Below, in pieces: positions 49,472-64,000 of a stretch of DNA of 64,000 nt. The position numbers were made by a program, and so were the translations under genes. The notes under the pieces are model-generated. The model searched no databases and had not been told where the DNA came from. It was given only the letters and a program-made list of their open reading frames with translations. The stretch's first letter is position 1. Each line of letters starts with the position of its first letter. This stretch comes from Saprospiraceae bacterium (GTDB taxonomy: Bacteria; Bacteroidota; Bacteroidia; Chitinophagales; Saprospiraceae): contig JANQWK010000030.1 of NCBI GenBank assembly GCA_030729925.1, positions 1 to 64,000 of the forward strand. Direction: 5' to 3'.

Positions 49472-50163
49472 TTGGTTGATTTAAATCCAACATTCGATAA
49501 GATGGCCGTAAAACGCTCACCGTCGGGAAAAGATTGTACGGACTCGTAAAGATATTGGTAGGCCTTGGGATCCCGCGAGGTAAACTTCCCGATAAAGGGC
49601 AGGATGTTTTTGAAGTAAAAATGATACAGCTGCTTGAACGGGAAAATGGTAGGTTTGGAAAACTCCAGGATAACGGCTTTTCCGCCGGGTTTGAGCACGC
49701 GTCTCATTTCTGTCAAACCCTTTTGTAGGTTTTCAAAATTTCTCACCCCAAATGCCACCGTGATTGCATCAAAATAGTCGTTTTCGAAGCGCAATTCTTC
49801 CGAGTCACCCTGCTCCAGCCGAATGATTTCACTGAGGTTTTGCTTGGCAATTTTTTGGCGACCAATCGCCAGCATATCCGCTGCGATATCCACTCCTGTA
49901 ATGGCGTGGGGATTGAGTTGTCGGTTAATTTCGAGCGCCAGATCCGCTGTTCCCGTTGCCACATCCAAAATAATTTGAGGCCGATCGCCTGTGCTTAACT
50001 GTTGAACCGCCTTTTTGCGCCACACGGTATCAATGCCCAAAGAGAGCACGCGGTTGAGCAAATCGTAGTAAGGCGCAATGTTGTTGAACATTTTCGACAC
50101 CTGCGATTTTTTACCGCTGGCGTCATTGTCATAAGGTTTAATTTCCATGCCTGTTTTTTTCAA
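49420..50163 (-). CDS. ubiE: Demethylmenaquinone methyltransferase
   Basis: SAM-dependent C-methylation of demethylmenaquinone, the last step of menaquinone synthesis (menG/ubiE). The 247-residue protein has the UbiE signature YDLLNRVLSLGIDTVWRKK, the SAM motif LDVATGTADLALEI, the post-I motif ITGVDIA, DAITVAFGVRNFEN and VLEFSKPTIFPFK, which together are diagnostic. It shares 52 bp with the following porT gene. Divergent from gyrA, 156 bp between starts. Confidence 0.96.
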   Translation of the reverse strand: MKKTGMEIKPYDNDASGKKSQVSKMFNNIAPYYDLLNRVLSLGIDTVWRKKAVQQLSTGDRPQIILDVATGTADLALEINRQLNPHAITGVDIAADMLAIGRQKIAKQNLSEIIRLEQGDSEELRFENDYFDAITVAFGVRNFENLQKGLTEMRRVLKPGGKAVILEFSKPTIFPFKQLYHFYFKNILPFIGKFTSRDPKAYQYLYESVQSFPDGERFTAILSNVGFKSTKCIPLTLGICSIYVAEK

Positions 50164-50264
50164 ACCCGAAAGATGCTAAATTTTATGGTACTCAAACAAA
50201 CAAATTGCGGGTGGGTTGTGTGCACGCGCAACATTAATTAGTAGGTCATAGCGGAAAAAATTAT

Positions 50265-50272
50265 TATTTTTG
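50265..50272 (+). promoter_or_regulatory. Candidate -7 box for gyrA
   Basis: TATTTTTG matches TAnnTTTG exactly and is 47 bp before the gyrA ATG. No clear TTTG 19-21 bp upstream. Confidence 0.45.
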
Positions 50273-50319
50273 CGTTTCGATCTAATCGGTACCCATAATT
50301 GTTAACTTAAATTTTTTGC

Positions 50320-52875
50320 ATGTCTATCAATCAGCGCATCGTCCCGATTAACATTGAGGAAGAAATGAAAACGGCCTACATTGACTATTCCATGTCGGTG
50401 ATTGTTTCCAGAGCACTTCCAGATGTAAGGGATGGATTGAAGCCCGTACACCGAAGGGTTTTGTATGGCATGCTCGAACTTGGCGTGCAATACAACAAAG
50501 CGCACAAAAAATCGGCCAGAATTGTAGGGGAGGTGCTGGGTAAATATCACCCCCACGGCGACTCTTCTGTTTATGATGCGATGGTTCGACTGGCACAAAA
50601 CTGGTCATTGCGGTATCCACTCATTGACGGCCAGGGCAACTTTGGATCCATGGACGGCGATAGTCCTGCCGCCATGCGATACACCGAGGCGCGTTTGCAA
50701 CGCATCAGCGAAGAGATGCTTGCTGATATTAATAAGGATACTGTTGATTTTGCACTGAATTTCGACGATTCGCTGGAAGAGCCCACCGTTCTGCCTGCCC
50801 GACTGCCCAATCTCCTGATCAATGGTGCTTCCGGTATTGCTGTAGGGATGGCGACCAACATGCTTCCTCATAACTTGACCGAGGTGGTGGATGGTATTGT
50901 TGCTACCTTGGCCAATCCGGAAATCACCCTGGAAGAATTGATGCAGTTTGTAAAGGCGCCCGATTTTCCCACCGGAGGAATTATTCTGGGAACGGCGGGT
51001 GTTAAAGAGGCTTATGCTACCGGTAGGGGAAAAGTCCTGGTTAGAGGTAAAGCAGAAATACAGACTGAAAAGAACGGCAAAGAAACGATTATCATTACCG
51101 AGATTCCCTATCAGGTCAACAAGGCCAACTTGGTCGCTAAAATAGCAGAGCTGGTCAATGAAAAGAAAATTGAGGGCATCAGTACCCTCAGGGATGAATC
51201 AGACCGACGGGGGCTTAGAATTGTCGTAGAGATTAAGCGGGATGCCATGGCCAACGTGGTGCTGAGCCACTTGTATAAATATACCCCACTTCAAACCTCC
51301 TACGGGATTAACAATGTGGCGTTGCTGCGGGGGAGACCCGTTATCCTCAGCCTCAGAGAGATGATAGATGAGTTTATCCGCTTCCGACTGGAGGTGATTG
51401 TCCGAAGAACCCGCTTTGATCTCAATAAAGCGCTGAGCCGGGCACATATCTTGGTGGGTTTGTTGATTGCCCTGGATTATATTGACAGGATTATTGACCT
51501 CATTCGGGGATCCGCTACACCAGATCTCGCCAAGGAAGGATTGATGAAGGGGGATTTTGTGGACGACAAAACCGCTTTCTGGGCAAAATTTGGAACGCTG
51601 ATTGAATCCGCTGCTACCAATGAATTATTTGTCGAAGCAGGGAACTTTCTGTCTGAAGCTCAGGCAAAAGCCATCCTTGAACTTCGTTTGCAGCGACTTA
51701 CAGGGTTGGAGCGCGATAAAATCAAAGCCGAATACGACGAATTACTTAAAAATATCGCTCATCTGAAGGCGATCCTGGAAAGTGAAGAGCTGCAAAAAGA
51801 AGTGGTCAGAGATGAACTTTCCGACATCAAAGAAAGATACGGCGATGCCCGAAGGACTGAGGTGTCTTATGCGGAAGGAGATATCAGTATCGAGGATATG
51901 ATCGGCGATGAGGAGGTGGTGATTACCATTTCTCATTTGGGTTACGTGAAGCGAACTCCCATGACCGAATATCGGACACAGAGCAGGGGAGGAAGGGGCT
52001 CCAGAGGAGCTAAAACACGTGATGAAGATTTCGTGGAACACATGTTTATTGCCAGTAACCATAACTATTTGCTCCTTTTTACCGAACAGGGCAAATGCCA
52101 TTGGCTACGGGTGTATGAAATCCCCGAAGCCACCAAAACAAGCAGCGGCAGGGTTATCCAAAATATCCTGAATATTTCGCCTGAGGATAAAGTTAGGGCC
52201 TATATCATCATCAAAAACCTTACAGATACTGAATTTGTCAATAATAACTTTATTGTTCTCGCTACGCGAAAAGGAGTGATCAAAAAGACATCTGTGGAGG
52301 CTTTTTCCAGACCGCGGTCAGGAGGGATCAATGCGATCACCATCAACGAGGGGGATCGGCTGCTGGAAGCCAGGTTAACGGACGGGAAGCAAGAAATACT
52401 CATGGCTGTAAATTCAGGTTTCGCCATCCGATTCCCGGAATCAGCCGTGCGCCCTATGGGCAGGTCTGCCGCAGGAGTTAGGGGCGTTACCCTCCAAAAC
52501 GAGGAGGATTTTGTGGTGGGTATGATTGCGGTGGATGCCTCCAACGAGCATTCTTCCGTGTTGGTCGTTTCTGAAAACGGCAACGGCAAGCGTTCGCCGG
52601 TAGAGGATTACCGACTGACCAACAGGGGCGGCAAGGGTGTAAAAACCATGCAGGTAACGGCAAAAACGGGGCAATTGATCGCAATCAAATCGGTTACGGA
52701 CACAGACGATTTGATGATTACCACCCGGTCGGGCATTATGATCCGCATGGCAGTTAATGAATTGCGAGTGATGGGTCGAGCGACACAGGGGGTTAGGGTA
52801 ATCAGACTGGATGAGGGAGATCAAATCTCGGATGTAGCTGTGGTCAAACAGCAGGACGAAAAAGATGAGGAATAA
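50320..52875 (+). CDS. gyrA: DNA gyrase subunit A
   Basis: Breakage-reunion subunit introducing negative supercoils. The 851-residue protein has the winged-helix/tower domains with catalytic Tyr121 ([10 protein letters not shown]), the QRDR region [14 protein letters not shown] with Ser82 and Asp86 (equivalents of E. coli Ser83 and Asp87, both wild type), and a C-terminal six-bladed beta-pinwheel. The GyrA box reads [10 protein letters not shown], near the canonical QRRGGKG. An acidic tail (QQDEKDEE) ends the protein. The length is typical for GyrA rather than ParC. Confidence 0.96.
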
Positions 52876-52964
52876 TTGACAAAATTTTAACCTTTTGTAA
52901 GCTACATTTAAGTATAATTGTTCGTTTAAATTCAAATCCGCTAATTCTAAGAAAAATAAGTATC

Positions 52965-54302
52965 ATGAAAAAAATTTTGTTTGCAATCTTTTCTTTGTTG
53001 TTTGCTACTGGACTAACTTTTGGTCAGGACGCTAAAAAAGCTGAAAAGGATGCGGAAAAGGCACTGAGCGCTTTTAATCTGGATCAGGCTAAGTCTGAAA
53101 AATTGACCGAAGCAATTGAGGCCAGTGATATTGCAATCCAGGATGCAGAGATTGGCGCTTTGTCCAAAACCTGGATTACCCGTGGTCAAATCTACAATGC
53201 AGCTTTGGTTAGAAATGCAGTCATCAAGCAATTGGAGCCAGGCGCATCTTTTGAATTCAAAGGGTTGGCTACTGCTGCCGTGAAATCTGTTGAGGCCTTC
53301 AAAAAAGGTCTTTCTTTGGCTCAAAAAAAGTTTGAGACCAAAGATGCGCTTACAGGTTTGGCAGAAGTTCAGCCTTATTTGACCAACAGTGGTGTTGGCG
53401 CCTTCGAGGAGCAGAACTTTGGTCTAGCCTATATGCATTTCAAAACAGGTTTGGAGGTACACAATTTATTGATTGATAACGGAGCGGTTTCCAATGTTGC
53501 AACCGATGACGATTATGATTATCTGGTGTACTTGAGCGGTTTGGCTGCCATGAGCGCCAACATGATGGCTGAAGCTGAAGAGCACTACGGCGCGCTTTAT
53601 GCTAAAAAATACGACAATGCAATCGTATATGAGGCGATGTACAAGATTTATACTGAAAAAGAAGGGGTAGAAGCTGCTTACCGATTCCTACAAGAAGGTC
53701 GTGCTGCCTACCCGGATGATGTATCATTGTTGTTTGCTGAAATCAACCACTACCTGAAGATCGAGGCACTCGATAAGCTGATTGCCAATTTGCAGGAAGC
53801 GATCTCTAAAGAACCCGGCAACATTAGCTTGTACACGACTACCGGTAGTGTTTTCGACAACCTTTACCAACGCACATACAAAGAAGAAGGAGGCGACCGC
53901 GTAAAGGGCGATGAGTATTTCAACCAGGCGCTCAGCTACTACAACCAAGCGCTTGAAATTGATCCAACATACACAGATGCCATCTACAGCATCGGGGTAT
54001 TGTACTACAACCATGCAGCTTTCCTTGCACAGGAATTGAATGTACTGGCTGATGATATGTCTAAAGAAGGTTTGAAAAAATACGACCAGAAAAAAGAAGA
54101 GTTGTTGGCGCAATTCGACAAAGCTTTGCCTTGGTTTGTGAAGGCAGAACAATCAGATCCTAATGACCTGAACGTTTTGATTGCACTAAAAGAGATTTAC
54201 GCAAAAAAAGATGACCTGGAGTTGTCCACGGAGTTTAAAAACAGGTTGGAGACCGTTCAGGGTGGTGAAACCGTGACGTCTTACTTCAAGGGTAGAAATT
54301 AA
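52965..54302 (+). CDS. Secreted TPR-repeat protein
   Basis: Unassigned function. The 445-residue protein has a signal peptide (MKKILFAIFSLLFATGLTFG), then helical repeats that look like TPR units at about 45-85, 120-160, 215-260, 300-345 and 360-430. Motifs include EQNFGLAYMHFKTGLEV, EAYRFLQEGRAAYPDDV, and YYNQALEIDPTYTDAIYSIGVLYYNHA. It ends at a strong terminator and its codon use looks favourable, suggesting abundant expression. Such proteins act in Bacteroidota as envelope scaffolds; I would not say more. Confidence 0.85.
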   Translation: MKKILFAIFSLLFATGLTFGQDAKKAEKDAEKALSAFNLDQAKSEKLTEAIEASDIAIQDAEIGALSKTWITRGQIYNAALVRNAVIKQLEPGASFEFKGLATAAVKSVEAFKKGLSLAQKKFETKDALTGLAEVQPYLTNSGVGAFEEQNFGLAYMHFKTGLEVHNLLIDNGAVSNVATDDDYDYLVYLSGLAAMSANMMAEAEEHYGALYAKKYDNAIVYEAMYKIYTEKEGVEAAYRFLQEGRAAYPDDVSLLFAEINHYLKIEALDKLIANLQEAISKEPGNISLYTTTGSVFDNLYQRTYKEEGGDRVKGDEYFNQALSYYNQALEIDPTYTDAIYSIGVLYYNHAAFLAQELNVLADDMSKEGLKKYDQKKEELLAQFDKALPWFVKAEQSDPNDLNVLIALKEIYAKKDDLELSTEFKNRLETVQGGETVTSYFKGRN

Positions 54303-54329
54303 CCAAAGCATTACCGGTTTTTTATCCGG

Positions 54330-54364
54330 AAGCCGCAACTATAGGATTAGTTGCGGCTTTTTTT
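54330..54364 (+). terminator. Intrinsic terminator of the TPR gene
   Basis: A perfect 12-bp stem, AAGCCGCAACTA (54330-54341) with TAGTTGCGGCTT (54348-54359), loop TAGGAT, running into a T-tract. It lies 28 bp after the TPR stop codon. Confidence 0.93.
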
Positions 54365-54374
54365 ATTTATGTGT

Positions 54375-54382
54375 TATTTTTG
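54375..54382 (+). promoter_or_regulatory. Candidate promoter (-7 box) for the hydroxyacyl-CoA dehydrogenase gene
   Basis: TATTTTTG matches TAnnTTTG, 31 bp before the ATG. A TTG lies 21 bp upstream, inside the stem of the preceding terminator; overlap of promoter and terminator is common in dense genomes. Confidence 0.45.
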
Positions 54383-54412
54383 TGAGCCAAGTTTAACCAA
54401 AAAACTAACTAC

Positions 54413-55303
54413 ATGAAAAACATTGCTGTTATAGGAGCAGGTACCATGGGAAATGGAATTGCCCATGTTTTTGCCATGCGTGGCTATATGGTCAATCTGA
54501 TAGATGTTTCGCCACAAGCGCTGGAAAGGGGAGTGGCTACTATTCGAAAAAATCTCGAGCGGATGCTGACTAAAGGATTGATCGAGGGGGCTGCGGTAGA
54601 ACAAACTTTGGCCCATCTCCAAACCGGAACGAGTATAGCGGCGGGGGTAGTCAATGCTGACCTTGTTGTAGAGGCGGCTACCGAAAATCAGGGCTTAAAG
54701 TTGGATCTGTTCCGACAGATAGACGACGCGGCTCCTGAAAATGCTATTCTGGCCACAAATACTTCTTCGATTTCCATCACCGCTATTGCAGCTGTGACCA
54801 GACGACCCAGCCAGGTGATTGGGATGCATTTTATGAATCCGGTACCCGTGATGAAACTGGTAGAAGTCATCCGCGGATACCAAACGAGCAATGAGGTCAC
54901 GCAAACCATCATGGATCTCGCGGAAAATTTGGGAAAAATTCCGGTAGAAGTCAATGATTACCCGGGGTTTGTAGCCAATCGCATCCTGATGCCCATGATC
55001 AACGAAGCAATTTTCACCCTTTATGAAGGCGTGGCGGGTGTTTCTGAAATTGATACGGTCATGAAATTGGGAATGGCGCATCCTATGGGGCCACTGCAAT
55101 TGGCCGATTTTATAGGGTTGGATGTGTGTCATTCTATTCTTAAGGTGCTCCATGAGGGCTTCGGCCAACCCAAATATGCCCCTTGTCCGCTATTGGTCAA
55201 CATGGTGACTGCCGGAAAATTAGGCGTGAAAACAGGCGAAGGATTTTATACTTATTCAGGAAGCACCAAAGAGCTGTTTGTTGCCCAGCGTTTTCTTAAC
55301 TAA
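54413..55303 (+). CDS. 3-hydroxyacyl-CoA (3-hydroxybutyryl-CoA) dehydrogenase
   Basis: NAD(P)-dependent oxidation of 3-hydroxyacyl-CoA, in beta-oxidation or butyryl-CoA metabolism. The 296-residue protein has the Rossmann motif VIGAGTMGNGIAHV (residues 5-18), an ATNTSSISIT catalytic Ser/Asn region, IGMHFMNPVPVMKLVEVI with catalytic His, NDYPGFVANRILMPMINEA with the catalytic Asn/Glu dyad, and the C-terminal MGLMGPL-like GMAHPMGPLQLADFIGLD and GKLGVKTGEGFYTY. The hbd/paaH subtype is not resolved. DUF1684 lipoprotein gene is 12 bp downstream. Confidence 0.94.
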   Translation: MKNIAVIGAGTMGNGIAHVFAMRGYMVNLIDVSPQALERGVATIRKNLERMLTKGLIEGAAVEQTLAHLQTGTSIAAGVVNADLVVEAATENQGLKLDLFRQIDDAAPENAILATNTSSISITAIAAVTRRPSQVIGMHFMNPVPVMKLVEVIRGYQTSNEVTQTIMDLAENLGKIPVEVNDYPGFVANRILMPMINEAIFTLYEGVAGVSEIDTVMKLGMAHPMGPLQLADFIGLDVCHSILKVLHEGFGQPKYAPCPLLVNMVTAGKLGVKTGEGFYTYSGSTKELFVAQRFLN

Positions 55304-55315
55304 AAAATTGGAACT

Positions 55316-56218
55316 ATGAAGCCTGCCATCCTTCTGGTATTCCTGATGCTTGGATTGTTACATTGCAACCGCCATGAGTCTTCAAACGAATATGTGCATG
55401 CGATCAAACGATGGCAGGAGAAACGCAATCAAGAGTTGCGTGATACTACCGGATGGTTGGCCCTGGAAGGCTTGTACTGGCTTAAGGAGGGCCGACATCC
55501 TTTTGGTTCCTCCTCCGACCAAACCTACGTTTTTCCGAAGGATTTCCCAGCTTATGCCGGTTTCTTTGAACTGAATGCCTCTGGTGAAATGACAATATCC
55601 CTAAAGGATCCAAGCTTTGAAGTGATGGTCAATGAACAACTCATTACCACAACGACCCGACTTGAGCCGGATTATCCCGGACCGCCAACTCTGATGAGGC
55701 ACTATAAATGGTTGTTTTATCCCATTTCGAGATCCGAGGGAAAGGCAATCCGGCTGATCAATACCCAAAGTCAAAAACTAAAACAGTTCAGCGGGATGGA
55801 ATTTTTCCCCATTGACCCTGATTGGAAAATTCCAGCTCGCTTTGAAGCCTTTGATACCCTCAAAACCCTTGCCGTGCCTACTGTATTGGGCAGCATGCGA
55901 GCGGAACCCTGGCCGGGAAACCTGGTGTTTTCCTACCAGGGAACTACCTACAAACTTGCCCCTACTTCTAATCCCGCTGATAAAGAATGGTTTATTGTTT
56001 TTTCAGACCAATCCAATGGCAATACAACCTATGGCGGAGGGCGTTTTTTGTATGTACAACAACCAGATTCCAGTGGCAACACTATTTTAGACTTTAACCA
56101 GGCATATAGTCCTCCCTGCTTATTTTCTATTCACGCCACCTGCCCGCTTCCCCCGGCAGTGAATCGCTTGCCCTTTGAAATTCCTGCCGGAGAAAAAGCA
56201 GATCTCGAAAATCATTAA
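55316..56218 (+). CDS. DUF1684 lipoprotein
   Basis: Lipoprotein of 300 residues: lipobox LGLLHC with lipid-Cys about 18. The DUF1684 pattern is clear: RQELRDTTGWLALEGLYWLKEGRHPFGSS (shown in part), an F-x-P/D-RLE-x-D-like motif, RHYKWLFYPISRSEG, and the characteristic TYGGGRFLYVQQP...DFNQAYSPPCLF end. Related DUF1684 proteins have no agreed activity. It follows the dehydrogenase gene by 12 bp and precedes the amine oxidase gene by 13 bp, which suggests one transcription unit. Confidence 0.87.
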   Translation: MKPAILLVFLMLGLLHCNRHESSNEYVHAIKRWQEKRNQELRDTTGWLALEGLYWLKEGRHPFGSSSDQTYVFPKDFPAYAGFFELNASGEMTISLKDPSFEVMVNEQLITTTTRLEPDYPGPPTLMRHYKWLFYPISRSEGKAIRLINTQSQKLKQFSGMEFFPIDPDWKIPARFEAFDTLKTLAVPTVLGSMRAEPWPGNLVFSYQGTTYKLAPTSNPADKEWFIVFSDQSNGNTTYGGGRFLYVQQPDSSGNTILDFNQAYSPPCLFSIHATCPLPPAVNRLPFEIPAGEKADLENH

Positions 56219-56231
56219 AAATCAGATATTT

Positions 56232-57278
56232 ATGCAACCCATTATAGTTGGTGCCGGATTAACCGGCTTAACACTGGCTTGGTATTGGAAACAAATAGGA
56301 GTCCGTGCACTGGTTATTGAGGCAAGGGAAAGGGTAGGGGGGCGTATCCATACCGTAAGGCAGCCGGGACAAGCTGCTGGTGTGGAAATGGGAGCTACCT
56401 GGCTTGGCTTGAAACATACCGCCTTAACAGCGCTGCTGCAGTCGTTGAACCTTTCGATCGTGGAGCAATTTCTCGGCGATACTGCCATCTACGAACCCAT
56501 TTCAACCAGCCCACCACAATTGGTTCAGCTACCCCACAATTCTGAACCCAGTTATCGCATTGCAGGCGGAACCGACACCCTCATCAAGGCCCTGGTTGAG
56601 CACCTGGAACCTGAGCAAATTGTTTTAGGTCAGCCCGTGCGGCAAATAATCCTGGAAAACGATCAAATTCTTGTGCAAACAAATGAAAACCAATATATTG
56701 GAAACATGGTTGTCTGTACAATACCACCTAATTTATGGCTCCGGAATATCGCATTTAGTCCGAAATTGCCTTTGCCGCTGGAGGAAATAGCCGCTCAGAC
56801 GCATACCTGGATGGGGGAATCCATCAAAGTCGGTTTGACTTACCAGCAGCCCTTTTGGAAAAAACCGCATGCAGGAGCTACTGTTTTCAGCAATGTAGGA
56901 CCTATATCGGAATTATATGACCATAGTGCCCCGGAGCATCGTTTTTTTGCCCTAAAGGGGTTTCTCAACGGTGCCTATCAAATCGCTACGCAGCAGGAAA
57001 GAAAGGACATTGCACTTCAACAACTGCGCAAATACTACGGGAAACAGGTCGAAATGTTTGACGAATACCTGGATACCGTTTGGGCAGCAGAACCGTTTAC
57101 TTACGCAGCTTACCAGCATCCCGTGCTACCGCATCAAAACAACGGCAACCCCATATTCCGTCAACCGTATTGGAATGGAAAACTCTTTTTTGGAGGATCC
57201 GAAACAGCTGATCTTTTTCCGGGATATATGGACGGTGCTGTTAGGTCAGCAAAATTTTTATTTGATCTAATTCGCTGA
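56232..57278 (+). CDS. FAD-dependent amine oxidase/protoporphyrinogen-oxidase-like flavoprotein
   Basis: Flavin amine-oxidase fold of 348 residues. The FAD-binding GAGLTGLTLAWYWKQIG (residues 7-23) is followed by EARERVGGRIHTV (28-40), the GG-R-I-x-T signature, then an FAD pocket (GIYEM-type) and the C-terminal GSETADLFPGYMDGAVRSA. Substrate unclear. ATG 56232 was chosen because the longer frame to 56175 overlaps the preceding gene and adds residues not in the fold. It is convergent with the LpxL-like gene, 61 bp between stops. Confidence 0.9.
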   Translation: MQPIIVGAGLTGLTLAWYWKQIGVRALVIEARERVGGRIHTVRQPGQAAGVEMGATWLGLKHTALTALLQSLNLSIVEQFLGDTAIYEPISTSPPQLVQLPHNSEPSYRIAGGTDTLIKALVEHLEPEQIVLGQPVRQIILENDQILVQTNENQYIGNMVVCTIPPNLWLRNIAFSPKLPLPLEEIAAQTHTWMGESIKVGLTYQQPFWKKPHAGATVFSNVGPISELYDHSAPEHRFFALKGFLNGAYQIATQQERKDIALQQLRKYYGKQVEMFDEYLDTVWAAEPFTYAAYQHPVLPHQNNGNPIFRQPYWNGKLFFGGSETADLFPGYMDGAVRSAKFLFDLIR

Positions 57279-57339
57279 TTATAAGGGCTTTTAAGGTAAA
57301 ATACTGTTTATCCCATAATTTATATTATGTTAAATAGCA

Positions 57340-58224
57340 TTATCCATTTACGAGCTGCATATCTTCCGGACGCTGGCGTTTCCATCGTTTATGCGTCCAA
57401 AGCCAGTATTCCGGCTGTTGAAGGATGTCTTTTTCGAGGATTTGGGTATGTCGGAGGGTAATTTCGCCGTAGGCGCTTTCCTGAGGGTTCTCGGTAATCA
57501 GTTCGAACCACATCTCATATTTTCCTCGGGAAATTTTCCGAATATGTCCAAAAACGACAACGTGGTTGTATTCTTTGGCGATTTTTTCGGTACCGAACAT
57601 AACGGCGGTTTCCCGTCCCAAAAAAGTAGTCCAAAATGCCTTCCTGGCGTCATGAGGCGATTGGTCGGTTCCCATCAACAAGGCGAAAGGCCCACCTTCC
57701 CCGCTGGACAGGAAGGATTTGGTGTCCTGCTTAGGAACCAGTATCATGCCGTATTTTCCCCGAGAAGCTTTGATTTTTTGTTCGAAGAACTTGTTTTTCA
57801 GGGGGTGATAAATCCCGGCAGGAATTCCATCTATTTGTAAGCCCAGACTCAGTGCTGCAAATTCCCAGTTGTTGTAATGGCCGGCTGTAATGATGATGTC
57901 CCTCCCCTGCCGGGTGTACGCATCGAGTAATTCCCGGTTGACCACCCTGCATCCGGCTATTGCCTCCTCGGCACTCATGCTAAACATTTTGAGGCTTTCA
58001 GCAATCAGATCAAAAAAATGGCGATAAAATTTGTCCATGATCTGGCGGAGTTCTTTTTCCTCCCTATCGGGAAAAGACTTGATCAGGTTATCCCAAACCA
58101 CTTTTTTCCTGTACCCTACCCATTTGTACAAGATCCAGTATAAAACATTGGAGACTCCATATAGCCAGGGCATAGGTAGCCTGGAAAGCGGCAAAATAAT
58201 GAGATAATACAACAGCTGTGCCAT
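57340..58224 (-). CDS. LpxL/HtrB-type lysophospholipid/lipid A acyltransferase
   Basis: Integral membrane-associated acyltransferase, adding a secondary acyl chain to lipid A or a related lipid. The 294-residue protein has an N-terminal helix (about 5-32), the catalytic H-X4-E motif GHYNNWE (His116, Glu121), GIYHPLKN and the later motif MGTDQSPHDA. ATG 58224 was chosen because the longer frame to 58266 would translate the stem of the pdhB terminator (as MGWLFLF). It is transcribed leftward, following pdhB but separated from it by that terminator. Confidence 0.88.
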   Translation of the reverse strand: MAQLLYYLIILPLSRLPMPWLYGVSNVLYWILYKWVGYRKKVVWDNLIKSFPDREEKELRQIMDKFYRHFFDLIAESLKMFSMSAEEAIAGCRVVNRELLDAYTRQGRDIIITAGHYNNWEFAALSLGLQIDGIPAGIYHPLKNKFFEQKIKASRGKYGMILVPKQDTKSFLSSGEGGPFALLMGTDQSPHDARKAFWTTFLGRETAVMFGTEKIAKEYNHVVVFGHIRKISRGKYEMWFELITENPQESAYGEITLRHTQILEKDILQQPEYWLWTHKRWKRQRPEDMQLVNG

Positions 58225-58252
58225 GCAGAGCATATTTTGGTCGCTGAATAGA

Positions 58253-58282
58253 AAAAGCCAGCCCATAGTGAGACTGGCTTTT
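58253..58282 (-). terminator. Intrinsic terminator of pdhB
   Basis: AAAAGCCAG (58253-58261) pairs with CTGGCTTTT (58274-58282); on the minus strand the T-run follows the stem (TTTTTC). It lies 36 bp after the pdhB stop and upstream of the LpxL-like gene. Confidence 0.75.
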
Positions 58283-58317
58283 CTACAATTAACTAATATC
58301 CTTAATCTTTACAGCCA

Positions 58318-59304
58318 TTAGGCTTTCATGTATCGCACTTCCTTTACAGCCTTCACAATGCGTGCTGCATCAGGCATATAAGCATCTACCAAAGTTGACG
58401 CATAAGGCAAAGAAGTATCTGCTGCATTGACGCGAGTTACAGGCGCATCCAGATAATCAAATGCATACTTCTGCACCACATAAGCAATTTCAGAAGAAAC
58501 ACCAGCAAATGGCCAAGATTCGTCAATTACCACAATGCGATTGGTTTTTTTGACCGAATTGACAATCGTCTGATGATCCAAAGGCCGAATTGTACGCAAA
58601 TCAATTACCTCGGCAGAAATTCCCTCTTTCGCCAGTTCATCTGCGGCCTCTAATGCCGGGAAAATCATTTTATTAAAGGTAACAAGCGTCACATCCGTTC
58701 CTTCACGTCTTACCGCTGCCTTTCCGATTGGAACCAGGTACTCCCCTTCCGGCACTTCGTCCTGATAGCCATACAGGAGTTCCGATTCCATCACACAAAC
58801 AGGGTTTTCATCCCGAATGGCAGACTTCAACAAGCCTTTTGCATCCGCAGGATGAACGCAGGAAATCACTTTCAGACCTGGCACATTTGCCATCCAGCTC
58901 TCGAAAGTCTGAGAATGCTGTTGAGCAAGTTGACCCGCTGCTCCTGAAGGCCCTCTGAAAACGATCGGACAGGAGAAATTACCGGCAGACTGCGAAAGAG
59001 TTTTGGCTGCATTGTTAACGATCTGGTCGAAAGCCAAAATCGCAAAATTCCAGGTCATAAATTCGACAATGGGACGTAATCCATTCATGGCAGCCCCTAC
59101 CCCGATACCCGTAAATCCTAGTTCCGCAATCGGCGTATCAATCACCCTTTTGGGGCCAAATTCATCTAACATTCCCTTACTGACCTTGTATGCTCCGTTA
59201 TAGGCTGCCACTTCTTCACCCATCAGAAACACGGTTTCGTCTCTTCTCATTTCTTCGACCATCGCCTCTCTGAGGGCATCGCGCAAAGCTAATTTTCTGG
59301 ACAT
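58318..59304 (-). CDS. pdhB: Pyruvate dehydrogenase E1 component, beta subunit
   Basis: Beta subunit of the heterotetrameric thiamine-diphosphate-dependent E1 of the pyruvate dehydrogenase complex. The 328-residue protein begins RDALREAMVEEMRRDETVFLMGEEVA, and shows FGPKRVIDTPIAELGFTGIGVGAAM, VEFMTWNFAILAFDQIVNNAAK, GLKVISCVHPADAKGLLKSAI and LVPIGKAAVRREGTDVTLVTF, with a C-terminal RVNAADTSLPYA. The E1-alpha gene is not nearby. The gene ends at its own terminator, so it is a single-gene unit. Branched-chain or acetoin E1-beta is possible but less likely. Confidence 0.92.
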   Translation of the reverse strand: MSRKLALRDALREAMVEEMRRDETVFLMGEEVAAYNGAYKVSKGMLDEFGPKRVIDTPIAELGFTGIGVGAAMNGLRPIVEFMTWNFAILAFDQIVNNAAKTLSQSAGNFSCPIVFRGPSGAAGQLAQQHSQTFESWMANVPGLKVISCVHPADAKGLLKSAIRDENPVCVMESELLYGYQDEVPEGEYLVPIGKAAVRREGTDVTLVTFNKMIFPALEAADELAKEGISAEVIDLRTIRPLDHQTIVNSVKKTNRIVVIDESWPFAGVSSEIAYVVQKYAFDYLDAPVTRVNAADTSLPYASTLVDAYMPDAARIVKAVKEVRYMKA

Positions 59305-59549
59305 GTCGGTATTGAGTTTGGTTTAATTATCTTCAAATCTGAGCGTAAAAATAGCAAAGAGATTGTATTTAACGAGTGTTGCGTTTTTTTTCTTGGCAAA
59401 TAAGTTACATGACTAAAACAATCGCCTCTCCCAAGGGTTCGTAGTAAATGACCACTGAAACGCCAACTTGCCGAATTAATTTGTAATTTTGCTCAGCTAA
59501 AAAAACAATTCGGAGCGTTCAAACCGCGTTATCAAAAAAAATAATAACC

Positions 59550-59705
59550 ATGCTCAAGAAAAGATCCCGGGGTTGGATCCCTGCCCTTTTGTCCTTGCTT
59601 GTTTTGCTTTTTGGTACTTCCTGTAACAGGGGATATGGATGCCCTACTAATTTTTCGATGTCGGACCTTTTTGCCATTTTTCAGCAAATAAGTCAGTTGT
59701 TTTAG
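59550..59705 (+). CDS. Small lipoprotein (51 aa) before mnmD
   Basis: A short frame easily missed by length cut-offs. It encodes M-L-K-K-R-S-R-G, a hydrophobic core (LSLLVLLFGTS) and a lipobox Cys at about residue 25, so a mature peptide of about 27 residues holding NRGYGCPTNFSMSDL. A basic start, hydrophobic stretch and G-T-S-C lipobox are all normal. It stops 29 bp before mnmD, and is preceded by a TAATTTTG box at about 59485. I cannot name a family. It is likely real because of the complete lipoprotein design. Confidence 0.6.
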   Translation: MLKKRSRGWIPALLSLLVLLFGTSCNRGYGCPTNFSMSDLFAIFQQISQLF

Positions 59706-59734
59706 TTTACCGCCCCCGCTCATAAATCAGGTCT

Positions 59735-60415
59735 GTGGAAGGAGATATCCGCACTATCATTGAAACCAGCGACGGATCGCATACGATACTGTCCGATAGG
59801 TTTCAAGTCAGTTATCACTCCAAGTACGGAGCTATTCAGGAAAGCAACCACGTTTTTCTTGCCAACGGCCTACATCCCGTAGCCATTAAGCAACACCACA
59901 TTTCCATTCTTGAGATGGGCTTTGGTACAGGCCTGAACGCCCTGCTGAGTTTTCGGGAAGCCTGGCTAAATCATTGGACGGTCGTGTATCATGCGGTAGA
60001 GGCTTATCCGATTTCTCTGGAGCAGGCGCAGCAACTCAACTATCATGAGTGGCTGAATGACTTGGATGATCCAGCGCTGTTGGTTCATTTCCACCAGCAA
60101 GATTGGGATACCGATGTTACGTATAACGACATTTTTACGTTGAAGAAAATTGCTTCCAAGTTCGAATCGCTTCAGCTGCCGAAAGAAAGTTATGACCTCG
60201 TATATTACGACGCCTTTGCGCCCAGCGCCCAGCCCGAATTGTGGGAGGCTAATGTGTTGAAAATCATGTACGAGGCGCTAAAACAAGGAGGAATGTTGGT
60301 AACATACTGTGCCAAAGGCTCGGTAAAACGCACGCTAAAGTCACTCGGCTTTTTGATTGAGGAATTGCCCGGCCCACCGGGAAAACGGGAAATGACCCGG
60401 GCAATTAAGCCTTAA
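59735..60415 (+). CDS. mnmD: tRNA (5-methylaminomethyl-2-thiouridine34) methyltransferase MnmD domain protein
   Basis: SAM-dependent methylase for the wobble uridine of some tRNAs (the methyltransferase half of MnmC, free-standing as in many Bacteroidota). The 226-residue protein has EMGFGTGLNALLSF (SAM motif I), an acidic post-I region (YHAVEAYPIS), the MnmD-specific DLVYYDAFAPSAQPELWE, and the end TYCAKGSVKRTLKSLGF. The start codon is GTG at 59735 with no upstream alternative. It converges on the HNH-AP2 gene with no gap (stop-to-stop). Confidence 0.92.
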   Translation: MEGDIRTIIETSDGSHTILSDRFQVSYHSKYGAIQESNHVFLANGLHPVAIKQHHISILEMGFGTGLNALLSFREAWLNHWTVVYHAVEAYPISLEQAQQLNYHEWLNDLDDPALLVHFHQQDWDTDVTYNDIFTLKKIASKFESLQLPKESYDLVYYDAFAPSAQPELWEANVLKIMYEALKQGGMLVTYCAKGSVKRTLKSLGFLIEELPGPPGKREMTRAIKP

Positions 60416-60964
60416 TCAGGATTTGTCTTTTCTCAGTTTGATCATATTGATCTTACCGTTTTCTCCATACAGTTCTCTTGACTTTTTGTTGTAAGCCAGC
60501 GCTGCTTCTTCAGGTGTAGAAAACATTCCGATGTGAACAGACTTTCTATTAATTGAAATCACAGCTCTGTATCGGTTGTTTTCCTGATAAACACCGGTGT
60601 AACCTGCTTTGCTGCTCGTTTTTCGCTTTCGGCTGGCCACTGCTCTTGACCGATAGACGATGTTTTCGAGCCGACAATCCAGCTTGTTCCCGTTTTTTGT
60701 TCCGACTAAGTTTTTTTGAGGTGTCTTTTCCTTCACCATGAATTTTTCTGCTACCAGCTTATGCAGATAGATTGTCTCTGTTTTGTAAGTGCCATCCGCC
60801 TTTTTCCAGTTTTTCTGAAAGACAGCACAACCACTGCTATGCTTTCGCAGGTTGTCAATAAAGCCCATCCGCACCAGATAAGGGTCACTGGTGAGGTACT
60901 CGTAAACTTTATCATCCAACAACACCATGTCATCAGAATTTTTAAGTTTAACTTTGTACAACAC
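60416..60964 (-). CDS. HNH-like plus AP2-domain protein
   Basis: Probable DNA-binding protein of 182 residues. The N-terminal about 110 residues follow the HNH-homing-endonuclease plan: VLLDDKVYEYL, IYLHKLVAEKF with His68 (first His of HNH), and KNGNKLDCRLENI (91-102), where the family has VDHINGN with the catalytic His; here it reads LVGTKNGN, so that His is missing. The AP2 domain covers 119-167 (GYTGVYQENNRYRAVISI, IGMFSTPEEAALAYN). The start is GTG 60964 (TTG 60961 and ATG 60928 are alternatives). It is flanked by mnmD and ribD. Homing nuclease gone over to a regulator is the likeliest reading. Confidence 0.78.
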   Translation of the reverse strand: MLYKVKLKNSDDMVLLDDKVYEYLTSDPYLVRMGFIDNLRKHSSGCAVFQKNWKKADGTYKTETIYLHKLVAEKFMVKEKTPQKNLVGTKNGNKLDCRLENIVYRSRAVASRKRKTSSKAGYTGVYQENNRYRAVISINRKSVHIGMFSTPEEAALAYNKKSRELYGENGKINMIKLRKDKS

Positions 60965-61056
60965 GATTTTTTGTATTTAGATTGTTACAAAAAATGCGCG
61001 TTTTGGGGAGGCGTCCGTGGGTAAATAAATCTGGGAATAATTAATGTGAGGCAGTA

Positions 61057-61064
61057 CAAAAGTA
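61057..61064 (-). promoter_or_regulatory. Candidate -7 box for the HNH-AP2 gene
   Basis: Minus-strand TACTTTTG matches TAnnTTTG, 93 bp upstream of the GTG start, giving a longer leader than others here. No clear -33 element. Confidence 0.35.
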
Positions 61065-61110
61065 AACAATTCGAATCAAATTAGTAATTTTTTTATGTTA
61101 ATTTCCATCC

Positions 61111-62166
61111 ATGAACTCAAATCAATTTAGCCACGAAGTTTTTATGCAAAGGTGTTTTGATCTTGCACGGATGGGGCGTACGGGAGTATCGCCAAATCCT
61201 ATGGTGGGAGCTGTTCTGGTGCACCAAAACAAGATCATTGGGGAGGGATATCATGAACAGTTTGGAGGGGATCATGCCGAGGTACGCGCAGTAGCAAGTG
61301 TAGCTCCGGAGAAGAGACACCTGATTCCAGACGCTACTTTGTATGTTTCGCTGGAACCCTGCTGTTTTTATGGAAAAACGCCAGCGTGTACAGATTTGAT
61401 TCGAGCACAGCGCATCAAACGCGTGGTTGTTTCGGCACTCGACCCGACCCCTGAGGTGAATGGGCAGGGAGTAGTCCAACTAAAGGCCTCCGGAGTAGAG
61501 GTAATTACAGGGGTTCTGGAGGCAGCGGGAAAATCATTGATAGCAAGACGAGGAAAGTTTGTCAATACGCAAATGCCCTGGATCACGCTGAAGTTTGCCC
61601 AAACGCAAAGTGGTTTGTTTTCCCCCTTGCCCAAAAGCAGGATGATGATTTCAACCCCACTGACCCAAAGGTGGGTGCACAAAATGCGGGCAGAAGCGGA
61701 TGCCATTATGGTGGGTATGGACACGGTATTGGTGGACGATCCTGCATTGACGACCCGTTTTTATCCAGGCAATTCTCCCCTTCGTGTTGTCATCGGGGAT
61801 GTTAGTCGCCTTAGAGCCGATTTGCAAATTTTGAATCGGGATGCCAAAACGCTGATTTACCATACGGGTAAGGAAATCACTGAGTCCCTGGAAACCGGAC
61901 ACGCCCGCGTCGTTGCGCTCGAAACCTTTAGTCTGAAATCGGTATTTCAGGATCTTGCTGCCCAAAACATTGGCAATTTGCTAATTGAAGGAGGCAGCCG
62001 CTTGTTGCAGTCGGTTTTGGCTACCACATACTGGGACGAAGCCATTATTATCCGGGGAGCTGGTTTTTTTCCGGAGGGAACTCCTGCTCCGGTTGTCCCT
62101 GGAACGCTTACGAACCGTAAGCGTTGTGGGGAAGATGAAGTGCTGACTTTTGCGCGTAAGTGTTAA
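61111..62166 (+). CDS. ribD: Bifunctional riboflavin biosynthesis deaminase/reductase RibD
   Basis: Deaminates and then reduces the pyrimidine intermediate of riboflavin synthesis. The 351-residue protein has an N-terminal deaminase domain with zinc ligands His55 (HAE, with catalytic Glu57), Cys84 and Cys93 (PCCFYGKTPAC), and a C-terminal reductase domain with MRAEADAIMVGMDTVLVDDPALTTR (only part shown) and LLIEGGSRLLQS. Both domains are complete. It is separated from the downstream thioredoxin-fold gene by about 97 bp with a hairpin. Confidence 0.95.
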   Translation: MNSNQFSHEVFMQRCFDLARMGRTGVSPNPMVGAVLVHQNKIIGEGYHEQFGGDHAEVRAVASVAPEKRHLIPDATLYVSLEPCCFYGKTPACTDLIRAQRIKRVVVSALDPTPEVNGQGVVQLKASGVEVITGVLEAAGKSLIARRGKFVNTQMPWITLKFAQTQSGLFSPLPKSRMMISTPLTQRWVHKMRAEADAIMVGMDTVLVDDPALTTRFYPGNSPLRVVIGDVSRLRADLQILNRDAKTLIYHTGKEITESLETGHARVVALETFSLKSVFQDLAAQNIGNLLIEGGSRLLQSVLATTYWDEAIIIRGAGFFPEGTPAPVVPGTLTNRKRCGEDEVLTFARKC

Positions 62167-62179
62167 ACTATCATTAAAG

Positions 62180-62201
62180 TTCATCCCCTGCACGGGATGA
62201 A
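62180..62201. repeat. Inverted repeat/hairpin between ribD and the thioredoxin-fold gene
   Basis: TTCATCCC (62180-62187) and GGGATGAA (62194-62201) form a perfect 8-bp stem with a 6-nt loop (CTGCAC). The T-run (ATTTTTG) begins about 7 nt after the stem, so it is a doubtful terminator for ribD. Confidence 0.4.
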
Positions 62202-62263
62202 TAGCCCGATTTTTGTTTCTAAGTTTTAACTTTAAATTCATAGGAATGATAAACCCCGTTGAA

Positions 62264-62836
62264 ATGAGGTTAACAAGTATAATTTTTTGCATGTTGTTGT
62301 GGGGATACAGCCCGCTCAAAAGCCAAACAGCTGCCCCGGAAAGCGCCCCAAATCGTCAACAAACCATCAACTGGCTCACCTGGGAGGAAGCCATGGCTTT
62401 GTACGAAACAGAACAAAAGAAACTGATGGTCAGCATTTACACCAATTGGTGCAACTGGTGCAAAAAAATGGATGCAGCTACTTTGGGTGAACCTCAGATC
62501 GCAGCGCTGGTCAATGATTATTTTTATCCGGTAAAATTGGATGCGCAATGTCTGGAAGATTTGACCTTCAAAGGCAAAATCTACAAGAATCGCAATGAAG
62601 GATCAAACAGCTACCACGATCTGGCTATGGAACTCCTATTGGAGCGAAGAAGCTTCCCTACTATTGTTTTTTTAGACGAACGCCTGCAATATATCCAGGC
62701 TATCGTTGGCTATAAAACTGCATCAGAATTCGAGACGATTGCCAGTTACTTTGGCCATAATAACTACAAAAGAACGCCCTGGTCCGCTTACGCCAAGAAT
62801 TTTAAGTCGGTGCTAAGTTTGGAAAAAAACAGATAG
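62264..62836 (+). CDS. Thioredoxin-fold periplasmic protein
   Basis: Probable periplasmic thiol-disulfide protein of 190 residues. From ATG 62264 the signal peptide (MRLTSIIFCMLLWGYSPLKS, cleavage near KSQ) is followed by a thioredoxin domain with the redox motif WCNWC (Cys63, Cys66), a cis-Pro region SFPTIVFLDE, and the last strand IQAIVGYKTASEFETI. It belongs to the group with DUF255/thioredoxin-like domains in Bacteroidota. ATG 62246 is an alternative start (six residues longer). The WCxWC site differs from WCGPC, so it may be a reductase of heme or copper pathways; the target is not evident. Confidence 0.82.
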   Translation: MRLTSIIFCMLLWGYSPLKSQTAAPESAPNRQQTINWLTWEEAMALYETEQKKLMVSIYTNWCNWCKKMDAATLGEPQIAALVNDYFYPVKLDAQCLEDLTFKGKIYKNRNEGSNSYHDLAMELLLERRSFPTIVFLDERLQYIQAIVGYKTASEFETIASYFGHNNYKRTPWSAYAKNFKSVLSLEKNR

Positions 62837-62839
62837 CCT

Positions 62840-64000
62840 TTACCTGCGGCGCTTGCGGGTAGTTCCTCCTACGCCCAATACACCAAGTAGCCCTCTGGTC
62901 AATTCTCTCGCCACTACCCTTCCTATTTGTCGGGTGGTAGGATTATTCAAAATCTTATCAAAGGTATTAGCTGTTGATGCTTGTTTTTGCCCCGCAGCTT
63001 TTTCTTGCTGTGCCTGCATCTTTTCCTGATGTTCTTTCTCCCTTGCTGCCTCAATCTTTTGCTGGAGAATTTCGTGAGCGCTATCTCTGTCTATGGTACG
63101 GTCGTATTTGTCTATCAAGTCTGAGTGGCGCAAGATTTTTTGTATTTCTGCCGGCAAAAGGACATCCATACGCGATTGGGGTGCACGAAGATAGGCATGT
63201 ACCAAAGGAGTAGGAATACCTTTTTCATTGAGAACCGTCACCAATGCCTCCCCTATCCCCATTTGGGTCAGTAACTGATCCACTTCGTAAAATGCTGATT
63301 CCGGGAAGTTTTCCGCTGCCAACTTGATCGCTTTTCTATCTTTAGCCGTGAAAGCTCTGAGCGAATGTTGTATTTTGAGTCCTAACTGCCCCAATATATC
63401 AGCGGGGACATCTGCCGGGTTTTGGGTAACAAAAAACACCCCTACCCCTTTTGAGCGGATCAATTTGACAATCACCTCAAGCTGATCCAGCAATACCTTT
63501 GGCGCTTCCTCGAAAATCAAATGGGCTTCATCAATAAAAAGAACCAATTTGGGCTGATCCTGGTCGCCCTCCTCGGGAAAAGTGGCATAAATTTCAGCAA
63601 GCAACTGCAGCATAAAGGTGCTAAACAATCGGGGTTTGTCCTGGATATCGGTCAACCTCAGTACATTGACCATCCCTTTTCCATATTCGTCTATCCTGCA
63701 CAGGTCGTCCACATCAAATGAAGGCTCCCCAAAAAAAGTATCTGCTCCCTGCTGCTCCAATTCTACCACTTTTCGCATGATCGCGCCTACAGAGCTGGAT
63801 GCGATGGAACCATATTGTGCCTCGATTTCATCCTTACCCTCGTTACTCAGGTACTGCAAGGTCTTCCTGAAATCTTTCAAATCCAAAAGCGGAATATCCA
63901 GATCGTCACAATATTTAAACACCACAGCGGTTATCCCCGCTTGTATATCGTTTAATCCCAGTATTTTAGAAAACAAAACCGGGCCAAACTCGGCGACAGT
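62840..64000 (-). CDS. HerA/DUF853-family ATPase, 3' end (upstream part outside the window)
   Basis: C-terminal part of a HerA-helicase-like P-loop ATPase (E. coli YjgR family), with the frame open to the window edge at 64000. Visible are TVAEFGPVLFSKILGLND-type start of the partial frame, an YGSIASSSVGAIMRKVVELEQQGADTFFGEP-type segment, the Walker B LVLFIDEAHLIFEEAP, and LIRSKGVGVFFVTQNPADVPADILGQLG, near identical in plan to YjgR. The Walker A lies upstream and is not seen. A charged, Gln-rich coiled coil and a basic end (TRKRRR) follow the ATPase core. It ends 3 bp from the convergent thioredoxin-fold gene. Confidence 0.93.
   Translation of the reverse strand, partial: TVAEFGPVLFSKILGLNDIQAGITAVVFKYCDDLDIPLLDLKDFRKTLQYLSNEGKDEIEAQYGSIASSSVGAIMRKVVELEQQGADTFFGEPSFDVDDLCRIDEYGKGMVNVLRLTDIQDKPRLFSTFMLQLLAEIYATFPEEGDQDQPKLVLFIDEAHLIFEEAPKVLLDQLEVIVKLIRSKGVGVFFVTQNPADVPADILGQLGLKIQHSLRAFTAKDRKAIKLAAENFPESAFYEVDQLLTQMGIGEALVTVLNEKGIPTPLVHAYLRAPQSRMDVLLPAEIQKILRHSDLIDKYDRTIDRDSAHEILQQKIEAAREKEHQEKMQAQQEKAAGQKQASTANTFDKILNNPTTRQIGRVVARELTRGLLGVLGVGGTTRKRRR

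Follow-up and report, generated by a model that had tools for sequence, protein, structure and literature searches.

A chromosomal HNH-AP2 protein of Saprospiraceae with a lost nuclease site, probably a domesticated homing endonuclease

The window (the whole 64,000-nucleotide stretch of Saprospiraceae DNA that was analysed) encodes a 182-aa HNH-AP2 protein that is best explained as a domesticated homing endonuclease, now a chromosomal DNA-binding protein that probably acts as a regulator. We assign this reading, in which the binding and the regulation are what we infer, a probability of roughly 60%. The gene lies on the minus strand at 60416..60964 and was recognized from a PHROGs match and its orthologues. 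It begins with a GTG codon (60962..60964), a start common to most orthologues, and ends with a stop codon at 60416-60418. The N-terminal part (residues 1-75, 60740..60964), delimited from the predicted model and conservation, carries the invariant H42 and H68 and overlaps a degenerate HNH (beta-beta-alpha) region at residues 67-115 (60620..60766), assigned from the alignment, the model, and fold matches. A predicted AP2 domain, based on the model and on fold and profile matches, occupies residues 120-176 (60437..60607). Two plus-strand neighbors are given for context: the divergent ribD (61111..62166; Pfam RibD_C and dCMP_cyt_deam_1), with a start-to-start spacing of 146 bp, and a convergent mnmD-like gene (59735..60415; Pfam Methyltransf_30; start uncertain), whose stop codon abuts that of the HNH-AP2 gene. 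The gene is present in a single copy in the host genome and is free-standing, with housekeeping genes on either side; it lies between mnmD and ribD and outside any intron, intein, or phage, as an earlier note on this DNA had stated. Across 58318-63976, the gene order PDH beta, mnmD, ribD, thioredoxin-like, and HerA-like ATPase was observed, and it recurs in many of 80 related loci. An Rfam scan of 50000-64000 gave one match, below threshold and distant from the HNH-AP2 gene.

To the earlier note, the HNH motif had lost its second histidine, with LVGTKNGN in place of the usual DHxNGN. The replacement was borne out by an alignment with phage and plasmid proteins, where V-D-H-x-N-G-N of the intact rows corresponded to V-G-T-K-N-G-N within residues 86-93 of the window protein (60686..60709, minus strand). 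The comparison set consisted of 11 rows (7 phage proteins, 3 plasmid proteins, and 1 viral-contig ORF), with Asp in 9/11 and His in 10/11 at the "DH" columns; the exceptions were two plasmid proteins, one from Nostoc (R-H) and one from Listeria, the latter not aligning in that region. I-HmuI numbering was transferred by aligning the phage Stahl enzyme to 1u3e with phmmer, whereby the DH columns correspond to D74-H75 and N96 to A110 of the window protein. The catalytic residues of I-HmuI are named in a passage of PMC12724721 as D74, H75, and N96; their equivalents in the window protein are G88, T89, and A110, and the Asn of "DNR" is also replaced (C97). The second His is thus indeed gone (T89), but the loss is larger than the note had described. 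The only such site remaining is N101, the equivalent of I-HmuI N87, and the Asp, His, and Asn that an active I-HmuI-like HNH homing endonuclease requires are all missing.

The alignment of the HNH motif across orthologues, proposed in the earlier note as a check, gave the same picture. Among 129 distinct family sequences, the catalytic Asp and the N96 equivalent were found in none and the catalytic His in 1, and "DH" occurred in 0/129. Four residues (H42, H68, N101, and R112) were invariant in 129/129, and C97 was present in 105/105 sequences of the host-family group and 15/24 from other families. These 129 sequences were obtained from 185 rows, some of which are the same gene under two locus ids, by merging identical cores (residues 38-150), and hence identical orthologues as well; rows with a profile score of <100 bits (e.g., L147, L177, and L120) and L149, a copy of L001, were left out of both sets. 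The note had taken H68 as the retained first His of the HNH motif. Its equivalent (in HKL) was found in 10/11 comparison rows, beside the catalytic "DH"; H68 is therefore a scaffold His and uninformative on catalysis. Judged from these alignments, the nuclease site of the HNH-AP2 protein is lost.

Several divergent sequences were seen alongside. In L161 (genome G789, family f51; 1501-2019), the His is kept without the Asp (VVHLNGDRLDDR); this sequence, the earliest to branch within the dead clade, could be an intermediate. A 202-aa ORF, L177 (genome G743, family f68), is HNH-AP2-like with a degenerate HNH site (VVIRRNFSVLDFRKSNL) and lies outside the main dead clade, possibly representing a separate inactivation. 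The 272-aa ORF L089 (genome G091) is HNH-like and also has the His without the Asp (VAHLNHNKLDNR), and weak HNH-only matches of similar extent were found in further Bacteroidota genomes.

At the domain level, the window protein matched phrog_99 (HNH endonucleases) in PHROGs with an E value of 4.5e-23 over residues 61-175. In Pfam, HNH_3 was sub-threshold (E, 0.0026) and AP2 gave no match at E values up to 1, while nothing near any cut-off was obtained when four family members were searched against NCBIfam. A structural model built from 66 rows had a mean pLDDT of 87.6, with strands at 86-89 and 102-105 and a helix at 107-112 in the HNH region; it superseded a 27-row model that had a pLDDT of <50 at 84-122 and matched 1u3e only weakly (Z, 2.3). 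With VIA-align, the model matched the AP2 domain of TEM1 (7et4_J; Z, 9.4 over 56 residues), WRI1 (Z, 8.6 over 60 residues), AtERF1 (1gcc; Z, 7.7 over 57 residues), and I-HmuI (1u3e; Z, 6.2 over 88 residues, model 18-115); Z values of <8 are modest alone, and the sequence was in agreement, with profile matches to WRI1 (E, 9.6e-10) and 1u3e (E, 0.014). The predicted model therefore has both the beta-beta-alpha HNH fold and an AP2 fold, in keeping with the note's statement that the latter is retained. AP2-like subunits of the Toxoplasma mitoribosome (9hqv_Yn, 9g6k_Lk, and 9i05_Xz) were also among the fold matches, placing AP2 folds in a ribosomal setting. The residues at what we take to be the DNA-contact positions of AtERF1 differ in the HNH-AP2 family, and position 123 is Thr in 93/105 host-family sequences and Arg in 22/24 others; site preference may therefore differ between lineages.

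A match was found in 204/398 genomes of the host family (E ≤ 0.001; two of them weak, in G494 and G586), in 145/275 of the high-quality genomes, and in 67/112 genera. The closest relatives were named Saprospiraceae, Phaeodactylibacter, Lewinella, and similar, and cultured carriers included Phaeodactylibacter xiamenensis KD52 (L008) and Flavilitoribacter nigricans (L044). Copy number was mostly one, with two or three in some genomes. Two or three family copies each were seen in G402 (contig C6), G735, and G696, with two tandem copies ∼250 bp apart in G402. In 22 host-family genomes without a hit, 18 of them of high quality, a search with the A1 profile found none, and the same profile matched the host genome and G037 as a control. 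With no match in 194/398 family genomes, the gene must be dispensable or replaced in many. In a class sample, 39/295 genomes matched, and in 27 of these the match covered 168 or more of the 176 positions; those 27 belong to seven other families (f51, f53, f59, f77, f86, f90, and f93), and the dead site is common to eight families of the class. In a phylum sample, 31/345 matched, full length in only four, all from the host family.

In a 66-row tree, for which no root was inferred and which contains several long phage branches, with the Listeria plasmid sequence left out, the 54 dead rows formed one side of a branch with support of 100/98, and the 35 host-family rows formed one side of another (100/92). 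Relatives in phages (692 and 507 records for two queries) and plasmids (22 records) were all <60% identical, full-length phage matches were 27 to 30% identical among the matches listed, and the sole relative from a viral-contig scan had 30% identity and an intact DH. According to the earlier note, orthologues with an intact HNH motif scattered next to phages or introns would have spoken against its interpretation; these were looked for, and what was found was a dead motif throughout and conserved housekeeping neighbors. The family thus occupies a conserved chromosomal locus, with one distant relative on a viral contig, rather than showing the sporadic, mobile distribution of homing endonucleases. 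No report on this HNH-AP2 family was recognized in a full-text search of open-licence papers.

GTG was the start codon in 69/76 orthologues, compared with 2/61 for ribD and none for the thioredoxin-like (51), HerA (32), mnmD (31), and PDH beta (27) genes; among smaller control clusters, c6 had 2 GTG of 26 and c10 had 1 GTG and 3 TTG of 6. The start finder favors ATG, and therefore its bias runs against this result. In a separate count, GTG was found in 84/112 host-family rows and ATG in 20/23 rows, all 23 but one from other families. A C immediately preceded the start in 75% of the 76 orthologues and in at most 44% of the members of any of seven control clusters. The motif acAacnAAAAntnAGAGAGC, ending exactly at the start, was found at 36/99 loci, with a log-likelihood of 221 versus 63 to 93 in four shuffles; in the window, the aligned 20-nt leader stretch (60965..60984, minus strand) matches it only in part. 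The leader motif is presumably regulatory.

Upstream of the leader, no operator was established, the only signals being A/T tracts. TAnnTTTG occurred in 18/99 upstream regions (shuffled mean, 10.3; maximum, 21), TAnnTTYG in 26/99 (mean, 13.3; maximum, 22), and TTG-N17-23-TAnnTTYG in 9/99 (mean, 1.8; maximum, 5); the block shuffles used for the leader and operator tests do not fully keep A/T runs. A promoter reading of these boxes is plausible but weak. The promoter-like box that the earlier note had assigned to the gene can be seen as a −7-like TACTTTTG on the minus strand at 61057..61064, 100 nt ahead of the start codon, but with no TTG 17 to 23 bp upstream it remains a weak candidate.

The surroundings of the gene bear on what the protein might do. 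Orthologues were sought at the same locus, as the earlier note had suggested, and besides the matches across the host family, tblastn placed a divergent ribD with its start within 1 kb at 60/80 loci, including beside family members of 45 to 66% identity, and a convergent mnmD downstream at 32/80. Because these loci are the 80 most similar out of 226, identity medians lean high. In an ORF-based count, 4/80 loci had no called ORF, 2 were at a contig edge, and ribD was upstream in 55/74. Such constancy would suit a divergently transcribed regulator dedicated to ribD and riboflavin synthesis, which we nevertheless regard as improbable. No ribD was found there at 20/80 loci. In f53, f59, and f90, a folD-like gene lay directly upstream on the same strand at 5/5 loci (2 to 28 bp away in four, with overlapping ORFs in the fifth), and in f93 a dnaX-like gene lay 63 to 278 bp upstream at 4/4 loci, one of each having been checked with Pfam; these differing neighbors weaken a specific ribD link. 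ribD was still present in 14/15 genomes without the HNH-AP2 protein, and the thioredoxin-like gene still followed it in 6/14 gene-less genomes with a full ribD, so that ribD needs no HNH-AP2 partner. The thioredoxin-like and HerA genes are also fixed in place, and therefore gene order appears to be conserved generally at the locus. A homing gene that died recently and now drifts, serving no function, would account for the loss of all three catalytic residues and the patchy presence, but it can be virtually dismissed. The dead site is shared across families, the median identity to the window protein was 78.6% over the 80 similarity-chosen loci, and selection results ruled drift out, with a median dN/dS of 0.009 and a maximum of 0.031 in 13 close pairs. 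By comparison, median identities to the window were 43% for ribD (61 loci), 43% for the thioredoxin-like gene (54), 54% for mnmD (33), 69% for HerA (33), and 86% for PDH beta (29). The HNH-AP2 protein was better conserved than ribD at 61/61 loci, the thioredoxin-like protein at 54/54, mnmD at 33/33, and HerA at 33/33, but it was less conserved than PDH beta, being ahead at just 3/29. As read from gene order and the tree, the gene is inherited vertically, and the combination seen in WhiA-kind proteins, namely lost catalytic residues, vertical inheritance, and purifying selection, was found here.

The main rival is an RNA-binding or ribosome-associated protein with the conserved leader as its own mRNA target, which we consider unlikely though far from negligible. 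The leader conservation reaches the start codon, a natural place for translation control, and the mitoribosome subunits 9hqv_Yn (Z, 5.0) and 9g6k_Lk (Z, 4.5) share the fold. Those Z values are modest, however, the fold is matched best by DNA-binding AP2 domains and by I-HmuI, and no RNA structure beyond chance was detected in the leader (−40 to −1, 99 loci; mean z, 0.02). Much less probable again is that nuclease activity persists through a rearranged active site, built for example on H42, H68, or C97: the invariance of the two His residues and of C97 within the host-family group is what such a site would predict, but C97 is far from fixed in other families, H68 is present in intact enzymes too, and the catalytic positions lack Asp, lack Asn at 110, and have His at 89 in a single sequence.

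Returning to a domesticated DNA-binding protein, descent from HNH-AP2 homing-type endonucleases is supported by sequence comparison. The free-standing phage enzymes of phrog_99, such as that of Bacillus phage Stahl, have the same full-length layout (N-terminal part, HKL/HRL, NGN, and AP2); relative to them the window protein, 27 to 30% identical to the full-length matches listed, lacks the catalytic D, H, and N and occupies a conserved chromosomal locus. With I-HmuI (1u3e) it shares the beta-beta-alpha scaffold and the N87 equivalent, differing in G88, T89, and A110, in the added AP2 domain, and in lying outside any intron. A free-standing HNH-AP2 homing endonuclease would have been captured by Bacteroidia or an ancestor and, stripped of the catalytic Asp, His, and Asn, would have become a chromosomal DNA-binding protein. 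DNA would most likely be contacted by the AP2 sheet, by the unreactive HNH scaffold, and by a basic linker (RSRAVASRKRKTSSK); the role would most likely be that of a transcription regulator or a small nucleoid protein with its own level tightly set. What we infer is that the protein binds DNA, regulates, and controls its own level at the leader or start codon. The earlier note's proposal of a homing enzyme turned chromosomal regulator is accordingly kept in its descent, dead site, and conserved locus, with binding and regulation as its probable remainder.

Domesticated homing endonucleases are already a known kind. WhiA (DUF199) is described in a section of PMC3781837 as a bacterial transcription regulator derived from a degenerate homing endonuclease. 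It is of the LAGLIDADG type, and its DNA binding has moved to an HTH absent from homing endonucleases, whereas the window protein is of the HNH type with its AP2 domain kept. The plant AP2/ERF factors share the predicted AP2 fold with the window protein, which is bacterial, still has the HNH scaffold attached, and differs at the contact positions assumed for AtERF1. An HNH-AP2 homing endonuclease origin has been proposed for those plant factors (Magnani 2004, as told in part of PMC3794426). A broader picture, tentative and given somewhat below even odds, is that, across several Bacteroidia families, one ancient event made a phage-type HNH-AP2 endonuclease into a conserved DNA-binding regulator, which retains the dead scaffold and sets its level by way of the conserved GTG start and leader, in parallel to the proposed plant AP2 origin. 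The regulator reading is weakened by the neighbors, which differ between families, and by the ATG start outside the host family. Because cultured carriers exist, it is testable. In contrast to WhiA, where DNA binding passed to a new domain, very strong purifying selection here acts on a protein that retains both its AP2 domain and its dead HNH scaffold. Should it prove to be a regulator, a large and little-studied lineage would have a conserved regulator that also offers a present-day bacterial counterpart to the route proposed for plant AP2/ERF factors.
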